From a virus, in IMG/VR virus record IMGVR_UViG_3300010410_000119, positions 1 through 27,192 of that record: 27,192 nt of DNA; one strand, written 5' to 3'. This document shows, piece after piece, positions 1-27,192 of the stretch (its first letter is position 1; each line of letters begins with the position of its first letter). A program made the position numbers and the translations under genes. A model generated the notes under the pieces. The model made no database searches. It was given only the letters and a program-made list of their open reading frames with translations, and was not told the DNA's origin.

Positions 1-89
1 GCTAGCCTGGTTACCTTTTCTAATGTATCCCTCACAAATCCTAGTTCTTCAGCTTTTTTCCCTAAATATATAATGTCGTAATTAGACAA
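1..89 (-). CDS. abiEii: AbiEii-type nucleotidyltransferase toxin, 5' fragment cut by window edge
   Basis: Only the first 29 codons are in the window. The reading begins with a TTG at 89 (MSNYDIIYL...), and its ribosome-binding site AAGGAGGTGAT is formed by the last codons of the upstream antitoxin gene; the two genes overlap by 8 bases. The visible residues contain LGFVRDTLEKV, which resembles the N-terminal helix typical of AbiEii/AbiGii nucleotidyltransferases that follow AbiEi. In this family the toxin is a GTP-binding nucleotidyltransferase held in check by the AbiEi protein at the level of expression (type IV system). The catalytic motif itself lies outside the window, so the call rests on the short N-terminus plus gene context. 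Confidence 0.7.
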   Translation of the reverse strand, partial: MSNYDIIYLGKKAEELGFVRDTLEKVTRL

Positions 90-849
90 GCATATCACCT
101 CCTTGATCCGTTAATTCAAATAGCCCTTCCGGTACCATCAGTTCCCATTCACTGTTATAGAAACTGTCGTCCTTTGCTTCACTCACAAGGTACCGTCTGC
201 TTTTTCCTATTTTACCTTTGCAATATTCTATGAATTCCTTCGATACCTGCATCTCTTTTCGATAATGGTCAAGGAGATATCCTACCCGTTGATATAGGCC
301 CTGGATATTGTATATATCAAGATATCGCTTCAGTTTCTTTTCATCCAAGTATTGGATTCCTTCCAGGCAGTTCAACAATTCTTCAAAGCCACCTATTTTA
401 TTGAAATCCCTTATGCTGTCAACAACTGTTCGTTCCATATCAGTTATTCTGACCCCGGTGGTGTTCTTTGCTTCAAAAACACCCTCACTCATCCTAGATG
501 CAACATATTTATAAGTTACATGATCATATTCAAAATGATTGAACTTTGTTTCAGATGAAACATACACTTCATAGAACACCTGATTTGCCAGCCCATAATA
601 TTCAAAAGCACTGTGATGAGAGATATATGCAGTGTCCGTTATGGCGCAAGCGATTTGATAGCGAGTTGCTACAAGCTGCCCTGTTGCAGGATTTACCACA
701 GAATAGATATTCTTTCTGACTTTCCTAACCCGGCCTTTTTTCATCAAACGATCTAGCTGAGTATACGCTGTCTTCTCATTACCTACAAACTTTTTCACAT
801 CTTCGATTGTAAAAACCGGATACTTCGCCAGTTCAGTCAACATATCCAC
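82..849 (-). CDS. abiEi: AbiEi-family antitoxin / transcriptional autorepressor
   Basis: A 255-residue protein with an N-terminal winged-helix-like region (about residues 1-60, including FTIEDVKKF and TQLDRLMKKGRVRKV) followed by the family-typical stretch ISHHSAFEYYGLANQVFYEV near residues 76-95 and a C-terminal antitoxin domain. AbiEi proteins bind inverted repeats in their own promoter and repress the operon, limiting the AbiEii toxin; the pair aborts phage infection in other Firmicutes. The GTG at 849 is preferred as start because GAGG lies 8 bases upstream; the ATG two codons later is possible. The gene overlaps the toxin start, as expected for translational coupling. It has its own promoter and operators upstream and is separated from the recombinase block by a likely terminator, so it is an independent unit, either cargo at the prophage edge or flanking chromosomal DNA. 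Confidence 0.85.
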   Translation of the reverse strand: MDMLTELAKYPVFTIEDVKKFVGNEKTAYTQLDRLMKKGRVRKVRKNIYSVVNPATGQLVATRYQIACAITDTAYISHHSAFEYYGLANQVFYEVYVSSETKFNHFEYDHVTYKYVASRMSEGVFEAKNTTGVRITDMERTVVDSIRDFNKIGGFEELLNCLEGIQYLDEKKLKRYLDIYNIQGLYQRVGYLLDHYRKEMQVSKEFIEYCKGKIGKSRRYLVSEAKDDSFYNSEWELMVPEGLFELTDQGGDMLV

Positions 850-1139: not shown

Positions 1140-4100
1140 CTATTTTATGTGTCTTGATACATCAAAAATCAGATGGAAGGTTATGCTGTTATCAGGATGG
1201 ATGACACCATTTTCGATAATTCTTTTAAAGATGTCCTCCCTATAAAGCGCTCCCTCTTCATTTCCGATATTCTCCAGTTCTTTGAAAAGCCAAGTCTTTT
1301 CTTTTACTAAAAATCGATGAGCATCTTCTTTATCATTCAGCTCATTGATCAGGTCTTGGGTTTCCATAATAGAATCGGTATATCTTTTGATTTCAGTTGT
1401 ATCTTCACCACTCTTTGTTCCATCTTCTACTACTTTGTAAAGTTCTAAATATTCTTTCTTGTTTTCTTCTTCATAATATTCTAAAAGCCTCTTCTCATTC
1501 TCAGTCAGTTTTTTATCCTCTATTTGCTTGTTCAGTTGAGCTATGAAGGCTTTATCCTTCTTTATGCCTGATAGCATTTTCGTGAATAGTATTTTAATCT
1601 CCTCTTCGTCAATATATGGTGAATCGCAATTAATCAAAGCATCTTTTCCCAATGCCGCTTTGCATCTCCATCTATGTTTAATGCCAGCCTTAGTTTTTCT
1701 GGTAACATGAAAATAAAACTGGCCACATTCTGAGCAGATAAATCTGGAAAAGAATTCTAGTTGCTCATGGAAAACCTTAGCCTTAGCACTTTTCCTGGGT
1801 CTCCTCTTATCTAATACCAGCTGGGCCTTATTCCAAGTAGTTTTATCAATAATCGCGGGATGATGTTCTTCTATCAGAACCTGAGATGTTTGTCCAAAGT
1901 TCAATTTAGATCTGCTCGTGAAGGTGTCTTGTGTGTATCTTTTCTGATAGAGTAAATCTCCAGTATAGTTGATATTATTTAAGATGGTTGAAACTGTTTT
2001 GGGATTCCATGAGGCTTTCTTTTTCATGGTAGGAATACCTTCTTTAGTTAGGTCTTTACAAATCTGCAATCCACTTAAGCCATCTATGCACTTCTCAAAT
2101 ATAGACTGGACAACCTTCGCCTCATCCTCAACAATATACCAGGTCCTGTCTTTTTTGAAATCATATCCATAGGTCCTCATGCTATGCCCCACCATACCTC
2201 GTTTAGCATAGGCCTTTTTCCCCCAAGAGATACTTTCTCCTAGGCTTCTACTTTCTTCCTGCGCAAGTGCGCTGTAGACGGTCAAGAGAATTTCTCCGTC
2301 TTCGCTAGCAGTATCAATCCCCTCTTTCTCGAAGTAGATGGATACATTATGTTCTTTAAGCTTTCTCACATAATCAAGAGCATCCACAGTGTTTCTTGCA
2401 AATCTGGAAATAGACTTTGTAATAATACGATCGACCTTCCCGTTTTCGCAGTCTCTGATCATTTTCTGAAATCCAGCTCGCTTTTCAGCATTGGTCCCAG
2501 ATACACCTTCATCTGCATATATTCTTACTAACTGGTTATTAGAATCTTTAAGAAGAGCGAACGTATAGTATGCTACTTGGGCTTCAAGTGAACCAAGTTG
2601 ATCTGGTTCTCTGGTACTTACCCTGGCATAAACACCGACCCTTGTTTTTTTACTTTTCTTTTTCGGTTCAATTTTAATAATACCTTGTGAGTCGTCTTTA
2701 AGCTTCTTTTTGATTTTGTTTATTAATTCATTTGGTGGTTTATTTCTAAGCTCCAGCACTTCCACCTGATCCTCACTCCCTTCTTTTGATTGTACTGTTT
2801 TAGGTATAGACTCATCATTCTTTGGAATGGTGAACTTTGATGTGTCTTCATGTTCTACTTCGATTCCCGCCTTTTGTTTTTTATTATTGCTAGGTACCGT
2901 AGCCTTTGTATCATAGCTCCTTTTAAACTCACCTATTTCTGTTATATCGTTGTCCATCCATACAATTTGAAAGTCTTGCTCCGTTAAGATAGATAACTCC
3001 ATGATCCATGCTCTCAATAAGGGTATATCTGCCATGTCCATAAATTTGTCTACAGTTTCCACTCTTTGAAGTCTTTCTAATGCTGACACACGGTATATCC
3101 GATCTTCTTCAATTTTTGTAGCCAAGTCCTCAAAGGCAACAATTGTATTCTCAAGCTCCTTCACTCTTTCCATTTTATATTTGTACATATTATGATCAGA
3201 TTCCGCCAGCTCTTCTTTAGCTAGAATCAAGCTCATTAAATGACTCATCCTGTGAAGTTCAAACCTATCATTTTGATTAACTCTCTCAAGGTTATCTTTC
3301 ATGTGTTTTAGTGCACCTGGCTTTTCAAAATCATATCGGACCTTCAACGCTCTTATCATCATTTCTAATAATGTTGATTCACTAAAAGGCACATCTAAAC
3401 TGCAGCTGTTCTTATTTTTAGAGTTTAGACCACACTTCCATATAGAGTTTGTTTTTCGTTTGGAACGATGAAAATACCACCCGCAGCAGCCACAAGTAAT
3501 TCTTTGCGAAAGTGGATATTTCACATTCGCACTTTTTTCCCTCTTAGGCCTACTTCCAAAAATCTCCTGAACCTTATTAAAGGTAACTTCATCTATAATC
3601 GCTGGGTGTGTATTCTTTATCAGATAGCGATTTTCATGTCCATCGTTCATCATTGCTTTTTTCTCCAGGAAAATGCTCGTTTGTTTATTCGTAAGCCTGT
3701 CCCCTGTATAGTTTGAGTTTGTGAGTACGTTTTTTACACTAGCACTTGCCCACAGCTCTTTCCCGCCCGGGCTCTTTATACCTTCTTCTGTAAGCATCAG
3801 CCCAATTTGGTGAGATGTTTTTCCTAGTAGAAATTCTTCGAAAATAGTCCTTATAACGTGCGCTTCTTCCTCTACAATCCTGAAAGTCTTTCCCCCATTT
3901 GTTTCAACAACTCGGTAGCCATATTGATTTAACATGACTGGCTCTCCCATTCTATTCTTTTTTTCAAACCCCCATTTTACATGCTCTGATATTGTCAGGG
4001 ATTCTTGCTGGTAGACTGCCGCTAAAGCTGTTAGGAAAAACTTGTGTCTTGTTTTGGAAGAGTCGATCTTCTCTTTCTCAAAGAAGACTGTCACATTATG

Positions 4101-4469
4101 CTCTTTCAGTAATTCCACCGTCTCTAAAAGATCCTTTGCATTTCTAGAAAATCTTGAAATACTTTTTGTAATGACAAGATCGATTTTTCCTTCTTGGCAA
4201 TGTCTTATAAGCCTTTTAAACCCTGGTCGCTTATCAATGGTTAATCCTGATATTCCGCTATCATAGTAAATCCCTATAAGCTTATGATCTGGATTCGCCA
4301 CTATTAACTTTGAATAGTAATCCATCTGGTTTTCAAGAGAACTAAGCTTTGTATCATCTTGAATTCTGCTGATACGGCAGTATGCAGCAACCCTAAGCTT
4401 TTCTCCATTTTCACCCAGGGATAATTTTTGAGGTGGTTGCCACTGAAGCTCCACCTTTTTTCTCTCCAA
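1140..4469 (-). CDS. Double large serine recombinase (A-type and B-type modules fused)
   Basis: About 1109 residues, roughly twice the usual large serine recombinase. Module 1 has YCRIS with catalytic Ser34, the GISGLTIDKRPGF loop, ITKSISRFSRN, then a recombinase domain and zinc ribbon (C326, C329, C346, C356) with coiled coil to about residue 515. A charged linker (about 516-610) leads to module 2: YARVS with Ser618, YADEGVSGT, ITKSISRFARN, a second zinc ribbon (C912, C915, C936, C948) and coiled coil. Such enzymes integrate or excise phage and mobile DNA via a Ser-DNA intermediate. Module 1 resembles the first recombinase of this block and module 2 the second. The start is taken as the TTG at 4469 because GGAAGGAG lies 8 bases before it; the upstream ATG at 4487 overlaps that ribosome-binding site. 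In module 1 the usual ESR motif reads ESL. A 155-base gap without convincing signals separates it from the previous gene. Confidence 0.9.
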   Translation of the reverse strand: MERKKVELQWQPPQKLSLGENGEKLRVAAYCRISRIQDDTKLSSLENQMDYYSKLIVANPDHKLIGIYYDSGISGLTIDKRPGFKRLIRHCQEGKIDLVITKSISRFSRNAKDLLETVELLKEHNVTVFFEKEKIDSSKTRHKFFLTALAAVYQQESLTISEHVKWGFEKKNRMGEPVMLNQYGYRVVETNGGKTFRIVEEEAHVIRTIFEEFLLGKTSHQIGLMLTEEGIKSPGGKELWASASVKNVLTNSNYTGDRLTNKQTSIFLEKKAMMNDGHENRYLIKNTHPAIIDEVTFNKVQEIFGSRPKREKSANVKYPLSQRITCGCCGWYFHRSKRKTNSIWKCGLNSKNKNSCSLDVPFSESTLLEMMIRALKVRYDFEKPGALKHMKDNLERVNQNDRFELHRMSHLMSLILAKEELAESDHNMYKYKMERVKELENTIVAFEDLATKIEEDRIYRVSALERLQRVETVDKFMDMADIPLLRAWIMELSILTEQDFQIVWMDNDITEIGEFKRSYDTKATVPSNNKKQKAGIEVEHEDTSKFTIPKNDESIPKTVQSKEGSEDQVEVLELRNKPPNELINKIKKKLKDDSQGIIKIEPKKKSKKTRVGVYARVSTREPDQLGSLEAQVAYYTFALLKDSNNQLVRIYADEGVSGTNAEKRAGFQKMIRDCENGKVDRIITKSISRFARNTVDALDYVRKLKEHNVSIYFEKEGIDTASEDGEILLTVYSALAQEESRSLGESISWGKKAYAKRGMVGHSMRTYGYDFKKDRTWYIVEDEAKVVQSIFEKCIDGLSGLQICKDLTKEGIPTMKKKASWNPKTVSTILNNINYTGDLLYQKRYTQDTFTSRSKLNFGQTSQVLIEEHHPAIIDKTTWNKAQLVLDKRRPRKSAKAKVFHEQLEFFSRFICSECGQFYFHVTRKTKAGIKHRWRCKAALGKDALINCDSPYIDEEEIKILFTKMLSGIKKDKAFIAQLNKQIEDKKLTENEKRLLEYYEEENKKEYLELYKVVEDGTKSGEDTTEIKRYTDSIMETQDLINELNDKEDAHRFLVKEKTWLFKELENIGNEEGALYREDIFKRIIENGVIHPDNSITFHLIFDVSRHIK

Positions 4470-4642
4470 TATAAAAACTCCTTCCATTAGCGTACATTCC
4501 CGCTTAAGGCAGCAGGTATGTTATTAATCGCTCTAGTCCAGAGATAATGCAAGTACTATCTGTGGAATGGAAGAAGTTCTTGTTTTATTTATGCTATTCT
4601 TCTCTTGTTGGCCTTTATCCAGGGAAATCTCAACTTTAAGAT

Positions 4643-6328
4643 CTATTTTTTCTTTTTACTTCTCAGCGGCCTTCTCTTTACATTTACCTTGTAGGAAGCT
4701 CCACACTTTAGCTGAAGCTCCACTTGCCACTTGTGAAACACAATGCCTTTCTCAACGGTCTGTTTGAAAACCTCTGCGTCAAAGGGCTCATTTGGACTTT
4801 CTATTTTCTCCAGCTCTTCTATGAGGGTCTTCCTACTTTCTTTAAGGTACTCACTCTCTTTTTTATTCTCATGAAGACCGTCGTATTCCATTTGCAGGAT
4901 TTCCTGCTCATAGATTAGATGCCTCATTGTGGCTTCATATATGATTTCATTTGACCCCGAGGACCTTGATGCCATTTCAGTTATCTTATCCGTTATTCTA
5001 TCGATTTGATTCCCCAGCTCATGCAGTCTTCGTTCTTCCTCCTCTGTCAAGGATGCATCCATAATCGCCAGATTTATTTTCTCCATTAAGTCCTCTTGGT
5101 TGTTTTTCAAGTCATAAAGCAGCTTCATAAAACCTTTCTCCAGCTCCTCTTCCCAAATGTAACTGCAGTTGCAGTCTGTAAACTCAGGATCTCTTTTAGA
5201 AGATACTCTACATTGCCATGCAGTAAACTTTGTCTCAATTCTCTCTACACCATAGTATGTGGTTAACCGTCTTCTGGTTACTGGCCTTCCACATTCACCA
5301 CAGAATAGCTTGTTTGAAAAAGGAGCTATTCCGCTGTATACCATTCGATATTTATTGTCTGGATCCCTCAGCATGTTATTTCTTCTAGTCAGCTCCTCCT
5401 GGACCTTTTCCCAGTCTTCTTCACTTATAATAGCCGGATGATTGTTTCGAATGTAGTATTGAGGCTGATGGTCCTTGTTTCTCACCCGCTCGTGAGTCAG
5501 AAAGTCCACAGTTACAGTCTTCTGTGCTAGACAATCACCTTTGTACTTTTCGTTACGAAGAATCTTGTAGACCGCATCACTAGTCCAGGTTTTCTTGTTT
5601 CTGGCGGTCCTGATCTGATCACGCATGAGCTCTTTTGCAATGGTGGGAGTGCCCTTTCCTGCAAGAAGCTCCCGGTATATTCTTCTTACTATTTTGGCCT
5701 GTTCCTCATCAATGATCAGGTTGCCTTCCTCATCCTCTGTGTACCCAAGAAAGTAGGTAGTTGGGATATGAGGCTTCCCCTGCTGGAACCTTTTCTGGAC
5801 TCCCCATTTGGTGTTTTCAGATATGGACCGGGACTCTTCCTGAGCCATGGATGATAAAATTGTGAGAAACAATTCACTTTTACTATCTAAGGTGTCCAGG
5901 TTTTCCTTCTGAAAAAATATCCCTATGCCTAGACTTTTCAGCATTCTGATGTAATGAAGACAGTCCAGAGTATTTCTTGCAAATCTGCTGATGGACTTCG
6001 TGATGATGTAGTCTATCTCCTTCTTCTTACAAGACTCTATCATTCGGTTGAACTCTGTCCTGTTCTTTGTTGAGGTTCCCGATAAACCTTCATCTGCAAA
6101 GATATCTACAAGCTCCCAGTTTGGATTTTTCTCGACATACTCCTTAAAATATGAAACCTGAATGTCATAGCTGGTCGCCTGCATGGCTGAGTCTGTGGAT
6201 ACTCTCACATAAACGCCTATCTTTTTCTTTTGGCCATCTAAATGCTCCTCATTTCTTGGTGTCCTGGTCTTTGCAGGAATGATGCTCACTCGGGACGATG
6301 ATATCCTTTGTCCGGATCCTACTGCCAT
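4643..6328 (-). CDS. Large serine recombinase, B-type
   Basis: A 561-residue recombinase. The N-terminal catalytic domain has YVRVS (Ser44), FADEGLSGT, ITKSISRFARN and AQEESRSISEN; the recombinase domain follows, then a zinc ribbon (C343, C346, C373 and C386 or C388), a coiled coil at about 400-510 and a C-terminal strand-rich end (EKGIVFHKWQVELQL). It most resembles the second module of the fused recombinase downstream, including the C-terminal KGIVF/NGVIH ending. Its ATG overlaps the end of the preceding recombinase gene by 10 bases and its AAGGAGG lies inside that gene, so the two are translationally coupled and probably made in similar amounts, suggesting that they act together. All catalytic residues visible in the family are present. 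Confidence 0.92.
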   Translation of the reverse strand: MAVGSGQRISSSRVSIIPAKTRTPRNEEHLDGQKKKIGVYVRVSTDSAMQATSYDIQVSYFKEYVEKNPNWELVDIFADEGLSGTSTKNRTEFNRMIESCKKKEIDYIITKSISRFARNTLDCLHYIRMLKSLGIGIFFQKENLDTLDSKSELFLTILSSMAQEESRSISENTKWGVQKRFQQGKPHIPTTYFLGYTEDEEGNLIIDEEQAKIVRRIYRELLAGKGTPTIAKELMRDQIRTARNKKTWTSDAVYKILRNEKYKGDCLAQKTVTVDFLTHERVRNKDHQPQYYIRNNHPAIISEEDWEKVQEELTRRNNMLRDPDNKYRMVYSGIAPFSNKLFCGECGRPVTRRRLTTYYGVERIETKFTAWQCRVSSKRDPEFTDCNCSYIWEEELEKGFMKLLYDLKNNQEDLMEKINLAIMDASLTEEEERRLHELGNQIDRITDKITEMASRSSGSNEIIYEATMRHLIYEQEILQMEYDGLHENKKESEYLKESRKTLIEELEKIESPNEPFDAEVFKQTVEKGIVFHKWQVELQLKCGASYKVNVKRRPLRSKKKK

Positions 6329-7956
6329 GCCTCATCTCCTCCTTCATTAATGTTTATTTTGGTTTCCTCTCCGGTGACCCAAGTTACTTTCAATAAAAAA
6401 GATGACTCCGCTTCAACACGTGTCATCCAGGCTCTTAAAAATTTTGGATTTTCTAGTTTTTTATAGAGATCCTTTATTGGACTTGATGATTGCTTCATTC
6501 TTTCCAGTTCAGAAATCGCATCCTTTCTATAACAATCATCTGCGTCTACCATCGCCCACCAAGGTTCTCTTTCTGCTATAGCGCTTTCCACACTTTGTCT
6601 GTGTTTTACAAGCTCTGTCTCATCCGTATTTTCTAAAACTGCCATACTTTCAGCAAAGAGCGCCTTTTCAAGTTCTAATCTCAATCTATTTTGTTCTCCA
6701 TCCCTAAGCACTTCAGTGTTCTGGAGGTTTTTCTCAAGTTTTATGAGTTGTCTTTTACCAGGTGCTTTGGAATCAATATAATGTTTCTCAATAAAGGCCT
6801 TCTTTAATGCATTCATTATAGTTTCTTCTCGGATTCCAACTACACTGCAGAGTCTTGCGCTCTTTAAGTGGTTGCTACATCTCCATGTGACTTTTCCTCT
6901 AAGCTGATAGCGATGAAAGTTTCCACCGCACTCCCCACAGCTGATTCTACCTGAGAAATCATAGCGCTTCACAGGACCTCTCTTCACTCCTTTTGTTCTC
7001 GGTTTTATAAGTTTCTGAACTTTATCAAAAGTATCTCTGTCAACAATCCACTCGTGATGATCCTTGATGTAGTATTTCGTTTTCTGACCTTCATTGAGCA
7101 TGACTTTATGAGATAAATAATCTTCGGTGTAAGTCTTCTGGCATAGAGCATCTCCAACATATCGCTCATTGCTTAATATGCCTTTAACCGATACATTCGT
7201 CCAATCTTCTCTACCATTTGCCTTCAGGTAACCTTTGCGAATAAACTGTCTGGCAATTTCTGTAGGGCTTTTCCCATTCAGGCATTCCTCAAAGGCTTCT
7301 TGAACAATATACGCTTCTTTCCGGTCTATGACCCAAGGGACTCCCTTGACTTTCTTATATCCAAGAATTCGAGAGAATTTTGCTTCTCCCTGTTCAAAGC
7401 GTTTTGAAGTCGCCCAGCTGATGTTTTCAGAAGTGCTCCTGCTCTCTTCCTGAGCTGTAGCAGCAAGCATGGTGAGAATAAATTCACTCTGCATATCACC
7501 AGTATAGAGATTCTCTTTTTCAAAAAGCACAAAGATTTTTCTCTCTTTTAGCTCCCTCACTACCTGTAGTGTATCCATAACATTTCTTGCGAATCTTGAT
7601 ATAGATTTACACAGGATTAAGTCCATCTTTCCGGCTTTAGCATAGCGAATCATTTTATTAAAACCATCTCTCTTCTCTAGTCTGGTTCCTGATTTTCCTA
7701 GGTCTGAAAAGATACCTGCAAATTGCCACTCTGGATTAGACCTGATGTAGTTGGTGTAGTGCACGATCTGATTGTCCAGTGAATTTACTTGAAGTTCTTC
7801 TTCTGAACTTACTCTACAATATGAGGCAACTCTTAATTTATGTCCATCAATGGCTAAGTTCCCAACACTGTATTCACCGGGTCTACTGCTATGTGAACTG
7901 TATCTAAAGCAGTCATCCCCAGTAGAGTGCATTTTTCTCGAAATGGTGGTCTCCAT
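6319..7956 (-). CDS. Large serine recombinase, A-type, first gene of the block
   Basis: A 545-residue recombinase with YCRVS (Ser50), GKSGTRLEKRDGF, CKSISRFARN, AQEESRSTSEN, a recombinase domain, a zinc ribbon (C340, C343, C360, C370), coiled coil and a C-terminal segment with FLRAW. The LRAW segment and the general build match the first module of the fused recombinase downstream (LLRAW). The ATG at 7956 is chosen because AAAGGAGG sits 6 bases upstream; the frame is open further upstream but without such a site. It follows a copy of the phage promoter-like motif and is the first gene of the integration unit. Its exact role (integrase, excision partner or subunit of a mixed enzyme) cannot be told from sequence. 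Confidence 0.92.
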   Translation of the reverse strand: METTISRKMHSTGDDCFRYSSHSSRPGEYSVGNLAIDGHKLRVASYCRVSSEEELQVNSLDNQIVHYTNYIRSNPEWQFAGIFSDLGKSGTRLEKRDGFNKMIRYAKAGKMDLILCKSISRFARNVMDTLQVVRELKERKIFVLFEKENLYTGDMQSEFILTMLAATAQEESRSTSENISWATSKRFEQGEAKFSRILGYKKVKGVPWVIDRKEAYIVQEAFEECLNGKSPTEIARQFIRKGYLKANGREDWTNVSVKGILSNERYVGDALCQKTYTEDYLSHKVMLNEGQKTKYYIKDHHEWIVDRDTFDKVQKLIKPRTKGVKRGPVKRYDFSGRISCGECGGNFHRYQLRGKVTWRCSNHLKSARLCSVVGIREETIMNALKKAFIEKHYIDSKAPGKRQLIKLEKNLQNTEVLRDGEQNRLRLELEKALFAESMAVLENTDETELVKHRQSVESAIAEREPWWAMVDADDCYRKDAISELERMKQSSSPIKDLYKKLENPKFLRAWMTRVEAESSFLLKVTWVTGEETKININEGGDEAWQ

Positions 7957-8080
7957 GTTTTTCCTCCTTTCTTTAATAAGTCTTTCATGCAAAAGATTTC
8001 TAGTTATCATCCAAACACCAAGTTAAAAATAAATCCCCTGAAACACATGTAAATAAGGGTTTCAGCTCTTTTGCGTATTA

Positions 8081-8111
8081 CATATATCACTCAGAAGGCC
8101 TCTAATAGCAA
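8081..8111 (-). promoter_or_regulatory. Recurrent phage promoter-like motif, copy A (recombinase block)
   Basis: On the minus strand TTGCTA (8111-8106), 19 bases ending in CTGAGTGA, then TATATG (8086-8081), followed 7 bases later by CAAAAG. It matches copies B, C and D before the accessory genes. It lies about 125 bases upstream of the first recombinase start, leaving a long leader, unlike the 33-47 bases of the other copies. Confidence 0.6.
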
Positions 8112-24828: not shown

Positions 24829-24857
24829 GTTCTTACCTCCTTGCTTTTTGGTACTTA

Positions 24858-24888
24858 CATATATCACTCTAAGCACCATGTATAGCAA
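24858..24888 (-). promoter_or_regulatory. Recurrent phage promoter-like motif, copy B
   Basis: On the minus strand TTGCTA (24888-24883), 19 bases ending in TTAGAGTGA, TATATG (24863-24858), then CAAAAAG. It lies between a terminator and the 254-residue gene, so a promoter role is likely. Confidence 0.65.
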
Positions 24889-27124: not shown

Positions 27125-27170
27125 GTGTATTTGCCCCTTTCTTGTTTAGGTGTGTTTCTTTTGTCATGTA

Positions 27171-27192
27171 CATATATCACTCTAAACAAGAT
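27171..27192 (-). promoter_or_regulatory. Recurrent phage promoter-like motif, copy D (cut by window edge)
   Basis: On the minus strand TTTAGAGTGA followed by TATATG (27176-27171) and, 7 bases later, CAAAAG. The expected TTGCTA would lie beyond the window. It is 47 bases before the amidoligase start. Confidence 0.55.

Follow-up and report, generated by a model that had tools for sequence, protein, structure and literature searches.

The locus and its genes

The window, by which we mean the whole 27,192-nt stretch of an IMG/VR virus record analysed here, contains the half of a tailed phage that extends from the structural to the lysis genes, coded on the minus strand; these run in the order amidoligase, terminase, portal, tape measure, holin, endolysin, three large serine recombinase (LSR) genes that we call A, B and F, AbiEi and the start of AbiEii. 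Gene A (6319..8010, minus strand, as are all features below) encodes an A-type LSR of 563 aa if it begins at the ATG at 8010, or of 545 aa from the ATG at 7956; the latter, which the original prediction had used as its end, lies directly behind an AGGAGG and, judged by the sequence, appears the better start. Gene B (4643..6328), which overlaps A by 10 bp, encodes a B-type LSR of 561 aa, and gene F (1140..4487) is a single open frame of 1115 aa that holds a fused double LSR. Within F, the F1 module covers residues 1-525 (2913..4487), a linker residues 526-611 (2655..2912) and the F2 module residues 612-1115 (1143..2654).

Upstream of A lies a perfect 14-bp repeat, GAGTGATATATGTA (8079..8092), which has three exact matches in the window where none is expected; the other two (24856-24869 and 27169-27182) are upstream of two other phage genes, and the same genes are preceded by it in relatives. 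It is likely to be a shared phage promoter. A TTGCTA-like box stands about 18 bp upstream of the copies before the recombinases and the two other phage genes. Between F and the right end of the phage is defence cargo: an AbiEi antitoxin gene (82..849; PADLOC AbiEi, 1e-105), found in the same place in the related units L005 and L040 and in the isolate Anaerotalea alkaliphila, and the start of AbiEii (1..90), which is cut by the window end and is matched in relatives at 1e-124 (PADLOC). The A-B-F block adjoins the lysis genes, as does the integration module of a temperate phage, and the right ends of relatives join ugd, prophage or recombinase genes.

Four complete recombinase modules

That these three genes encode four complete serine recombinase modules was borne out by Pfam, which found Resolvase, Recombinase and Zn_ribbon_recom domains once each in A and B and twice in F; all matches were far above cut-off, and no other domains were found. 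The four catalytic serines and the zinc-ribbon cysteines that had been predicted are all there (S40 and S624 in F, S68 of A in the 563-aa numbering, S44 in B), as are the R and SRFxRN motifs of each module. Across 113 modules and 16 fused proteins the nucleophile, the R/SRFxRN motifs and the zinc cysteines vary little or not at all, and 16/16 fused proteins keep nucleophile, arginines and zinc cysteines in both halves, including S40, R38, R112, R115 and the zinc cysteines of F1 and S624, R622, R695 and R698 of F2. Every part is under purifying selection, with dN/dS of 0.06-0.07 for A, 0.055-0.06 for B and 0.08 for the catalytic part of both F1 and F2; the C-terminal halves of F are looser (0.2-0.3), and the linker stands at 0.24. 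From their sequences, all four modules look active.

An AlphaFold2 model of F (pLDDT 71.5 overall, pTM 0.49) has two LSR folds, at residues 30-520 and 613-1115, joined by a predicted disordered linker (pLDDT <50 at 525-611) with one short helix at 585-598. Among solved structures the model is closest to the SPbeta, phiC31 and Bxb1 integrases, with SPbeta YokA (9dxh, 9y66) as the best match.

The fusion recurs, and a split form exists

The fused gene recurs in independent assemblies and is therefore no sequencing artefact. A-B-F cassettes with a fused F, 93-98% identical per module, are present in two other assemblies (L005 and L040), and altogether 16 intact fused proteins, 31-94% identical to that of the window, were found in 12 assemblies, one of them, at about 32% identity, in the Alkalibacterium sp. 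MB6 isolate contig / GenBank PV036459. The GenBank phage (L006/L043), whose given source is human feces, has the same 57209 bp and the same A-B-F cassette as the isolate contig. In divergent phages the usual order is endolysin-A-B-F-defence cargo, and F is present in every A/B-clade cassette long enough to show it. There is also a stand-alone fused LSR of 1097 aa in G014 (L072), beside a transposase-like gene on an 18.7-kb contig that lacks both A and B. Frameshifted copies of F occur in G004, L014 and G012; F2 is broken by frameshift in three closely related units (L012, L014 and L042), and a near-identical copy in L065 is intact.

A search for a genome in which the third gene is in two pieces found one, in the isolate Anaerotalea alkaliphila. 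On one of its contigs the last genes are B and a 520-aa F1 that stops at TAATAA, and a second starts with a 537-aa F2, which is preceded by an AAGGAGG of its own and followed by AbiEi and AbiEii; the free N-terminus of this F2, MEIIEIQNKPSTELIDKIKKK, is homologous to the end of the F linker in the window. The same four modules are thus present as four genes, the join between the F1 and F2 contigs being unassembled, with intervening DNA possible. Since both halves nest inside the fused family in the tree, the fusion is ancestral and the split came later.

Whether fusion is widespread among tandem LSRs was considered and rejected: in 392 genomes of the Anaerotalea order, with two candidates scored per genome, the open frames of about 1190 aa were two separate genes with a gene of 138-163 aa between them. 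Such an intervening gene, resembling part of a recombinase domain, is frequent in the LSR pairs of Lachnospirales-order prophages (L119-L131), and in three LSRs of about 500 aa (L024, L025 and L037) part of the recombinase/zinc region is apparently present twice.

Relationships and co-variation of the modules

Among 105 catalytic+recombinase segments placed in a tree, A formed one clade (100/99) and B another (100/99); F1 was nearest to A (99/98), with two Lachnospiraceae genes inside, and F2 formed a clade of its own beside A+F1 (93/91). A strict A+F1 clade was not rejected by the AU test (p-AU 0.48), while in the same catalytic+recombinase part a B+F2 clade cost 25.7 log units and was rejected (p-AU 0.0165). 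The C-terminal halves, compared by hhalign, paired A with F1 (99.4%) and B with F2 (98.8%), with no cross matches. The original prediction had read the gene order as A, B, A-B, with module 1 of the fused gene grouping with gene 1 and module 2 with gene 2. The grouping of F1 with A was upheld in both regions; that of F2 with B stood in the C-terminal half and failed in the catalytic+recombinase part, which lies nearer A/F1, so that a simple duplicated A-B pair is too neat an account. Over all sampled phages A, B, F1 and F2 each keep to their own clade, except for one stand-alone F and the split copy, and on this tree the four module lineages are old.

The modules also differ in the company they keep. 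Pairwise identities between phages are correlated at r=0.97 for A with B and likewise for F1 with F2, and at r=0.64 for A with F1. Between the gamma and beta subtypes A and B are 76-84% identical and F1 and F2 38-43%, and since A/B stand at about 80% while F stands at about 40%, F has been exchanged as one unit. The joint evolution of A and B, together with this exchange of F, suggests a four-part machine for inserting DNA.

Right ends, arm and targets

The phages end, after F and the cargo zone, in a conserved arm that passes at once into varying DNA. Right ends were found for 19 units, most of them joined to identifiable target DNA. The arm reads TTATCCTTCTCGTATCATGGCG in the subtype to which the window belongs (alpha), and TTATCCTTCGMGAWTCAWGGCG or similar in other subtypes; the motif is absent from the window, and in close relatives the att arm of the right end is reached about 0.9-1.3 kb beyond the point that corresponds to the window end (right end at G001:20472 and G010:9355). 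The targets are diverse. The gene ugd was hit at two different codons (G007 and Anaerotalea), and a tail gene (G001), a portal gene (G010), a flippase-like gene (MB6) and the recombinase genes of other units were also joined, as was the phage promoter repeat (L087, G015/L093 and G007), the GAGTGATATATGTA-type repeat being itself the recombination target in L087 and L093. Units with near-identical F share the same kind of target: four gamma-type junctions fall on FxKE codons (in A, F1, F2 and B), two delta-type junctions on the RNEK codons of B, and, for beta units whose F is 97% identical, two on codon ~157 of B. The gamma type showed no sign of avoiding FxKE target codons in its own sequence. 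A CG is present at the crossover in the best native comparisons, those with a 98% copy for Ana15:33865 and with a related promoter copy for L093, and is absent from more distant relatives of other targets.

A 54-nt stretch of the arm correlates with A/B at r 0.84/0.88 and with F1/F2 at 0.68/0.69, though it is F that lies between B and the arm. This link to A/B comes mainly from one contrast, gamma against beta, and few independent lineages; there the arm is 72-83% identical (three of four beta units) and F about 40%. In 16/16 junctions with an identified target the junction runs in the direction of the target gene, either because target polarity is fixed or because a deletion mechanism produced it.

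Left (attL) ends and an intact attP were looked for in the units and none was found, all junctions being right-end ones. On the left the MB6 contig apparently breaks at repeats resembling IS ends, and G007 at an apparent group II intron in the capsid gene. By eye, group II intron-like sequence with a maturase-like ORF is present in or next to the capsid gene in L077, L078 (G007) and at G015:29573-31384.

Arrays and cargo

Two to five cassettes stand in a row on contigs of G001, G003, G005, G007, G009 and Anaerotalea, each later cassette being cut on its left at one of the right-end target sites. The five Anaerotalea units each have their right end inside A, B or F of the next, and the last is in ugd. 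We read the arrays as accretion at right ends with loss of duplicated left parts. Pure nested insertion is unsupported, as the Anaerotalea assembly lacks the matching left halves, which would hold the N-terminal parts of ugd, A, B and F. That successive phages nested in the recombinase genes of the previous phage, with left halves lost later, and that LSRs directly made deletions between tandem prophages are to us evenly balanced accounts: the chain of five junctions favours nesting, and the missing left halves weigh against it. Some array units have a truncated A or B yet an intact F, and look like remnants. The cargo between F and the right end includes AbiE, Dsr2, type II restriction-modification and IetS systems (PADLOC). 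Inside phage structural genes on an Anaerotalea contig (C15; L055:3446-6937) there are three adjacent tyrosine-recombinase-like ORFs with 46-bp inverted ends, laid out, by eye, as in a recombinase-in-trio (RIT) element.

Comparison with known systems

The integrases of A118, SPbeta, phiC31 and Bxb1 have in common with the proteins described here their domains, active site, zinc ribbon and coiled-coil region, and an att half-site with a short crossover; each of them is one gene whose product acts as a homodimer on each site, whereas the system described here combines four distinct modules, with two carried on a single chain. The SCCmec recombinases CcrA and CcrB offer another likeness, in that A and B, like them, are adjacent, different LSRs, and in that the elements are stacked in tandem. 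The best Ccr match of both B and F2 is to CcrB (125 and 117 bits). Membership of the Ccr families was rejected for every module, all being far under the NCBIfam cut-offs for CcrA, CcrB and CcrC (900/700/900 bits; best 125). The setting also differs from SCCmec, being that of a phage, and none of the right ends was at the end of rlmH (orfX), the SCC insertion site; they were in ugd, flippase-like, tail, portal and LSR genes.

Similar in layout are the streptococcal prophages of the Phi1207.3 and phi-m46.1 group, with holin-lysin, two LSR genes and cargo at the right end (PMC4260502); the insertion site is a dinucleotide (GA) within the comEC coding sequence (PMC4260502). Their LSR genes, about 35-41% identical to those here over matched pieces, are separate, with no fused protein. 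In L009 (PV036433) two LSR pairs face each other, and each is flanked on its outer side by an endolysin gene. The use of several target genes and repeated integration into prophage genes are reminiscent of multi-targeting LSRs, among which related recombinases use several target genes (Durrant et al. 2022, PMC10083194), and of helper-embedded satellites, which target prophage late genes (PMC10111431); in contrast to both, the recombinase genes themselves are among the targets here. DUF4368, common but not universal in the multi-targeting clade, had no Pfam match in A, B or F, and the integrases of the helper-embedded satellites (HE-PICI) constitute a single clade of their own and are located in late genes of the phage lambda type. 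LSR genes in tandem are already known from phages and from SCC elements; a search of the open-licence literature for a fused double LSR (or a paper on fused or tandem serine recombinases) found no description of one.

A proposed multi-part integrase and its alternatives

A serine-integrase synapse requires four catalytic subunits, two per att site, and four modules can therefore fill one tetramer. Our main reading is that the block serves the integration and excision of a temperate tailed phage of Firmicutes and that A, B and F form one multi-part serine integrase, with four modules in three chains, to which we give a probability of about 0.5. At the level of sequence its supports are intact modules under selection, an old and conserved fusion, the co-evolution of A with B and of F1 with F2, and a conserved arm with variable targets; from these we infer joint action in one complex and which pair would be on which site. 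A and B would be one functional pair, and F1 and F2 a second, permanently tethered and swapped between phages as a unit, so that one pair would occupy the phage site and the other the target. As the arm tracks A/B more than F, and the target follows F, we propose, as a possibility that we still regard as doubtful, a hetero-tetramer in which an A:B heterodimer would read the phage site and a single-chain F1-F2 dimer the target, and in which the swap of one gene would change the target range. In favour of a four-module enzyme, four LSR genes in a row, none of them fused, are carried by two unrelated phages, the tree classes running 1-2-1-2 in L022 and 1-1-2-2 in G015 (L094-L097); against it, many related phages have two LSR genes only.

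It is possible, if somewhat doubtful, that there are instead two integrases acting independently or sequentially: a conventional one encoded by the A/B gene pair, and a single-chain one, F, that recombines att sites of its own and is kept for opening other targets. The abundance of two-gene pairs that lack F, the stand-alone fused LSR in G014, from which F alone may suffice and which counts against a four-module enzyme, and the swapping of F independently of A/B all agree with such a division. Harder to reconcile with it are the single right-end arm per unit, which tracks A/B while the target follows F, and the presence of F wherever an A/B-clade cassette is long enough to show it. Far less probable is a decaying or non-catalytic F kept as a DNA-binding or regulatory factor, something that the faster C-terminal halves (dN/dS 0.2-0.3) and the frameshifts in G004, L014 and G012 might have suggested, were the catalytic residues of both modules not invariant in 16 fused proteins and dN/dS not 0.08 in both catalytic parts.

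The geometry of the tether bears on one further alternative. LSRs bind as dimers on each att site and recombine in a tetramer (PMC3783163); one half rotates against the other, and the subunits of one att site finish on opposite rotating halves (PMC11607074). The original prediction was that the fused copy may form a bridged dimer for one reaction, for example excision; in such a scheme F1 and F2 would link attP and attB, one module per DNA. If the tether joined subunits within the same rotating half, one from each site, it would avoid the rotating interface, and the 87-residue flexible linker of the AlphaFold2 model could span either geometry. Nothing in the sequence ties F to excision or to bridging, however, and the co-evolution of A with F2 or B with F1 that a bridge predicts was not seen; A varies with B, F1 with F2 and F with the integration target, which fits an F pair on the target better, and we consider the bridge improbable. 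With the F pair on the target, the covalent link would cross the rotating interface, limiting or timing rotation, or would set which subunits rotate together.

To our knowledge, mechanistic work on serine integrases has nearly all been on one protein acting as a homodimer. If our reading is true, these phages would provide a natural tethered four-module system in which to ask what each subunit contributes to the synapse and what sets directionality, a test of whether subunit rotation tolerates a covalent link, and a retargetable integrase whose phage site and target are read by different polypeptides. The arrays, for their part, suggest that such phages have landed repeatedly in the recombinase genes of resident prophages, leaving their defence genes (AbiE, Dsr2, type II restriction-modification and IetS) behind.
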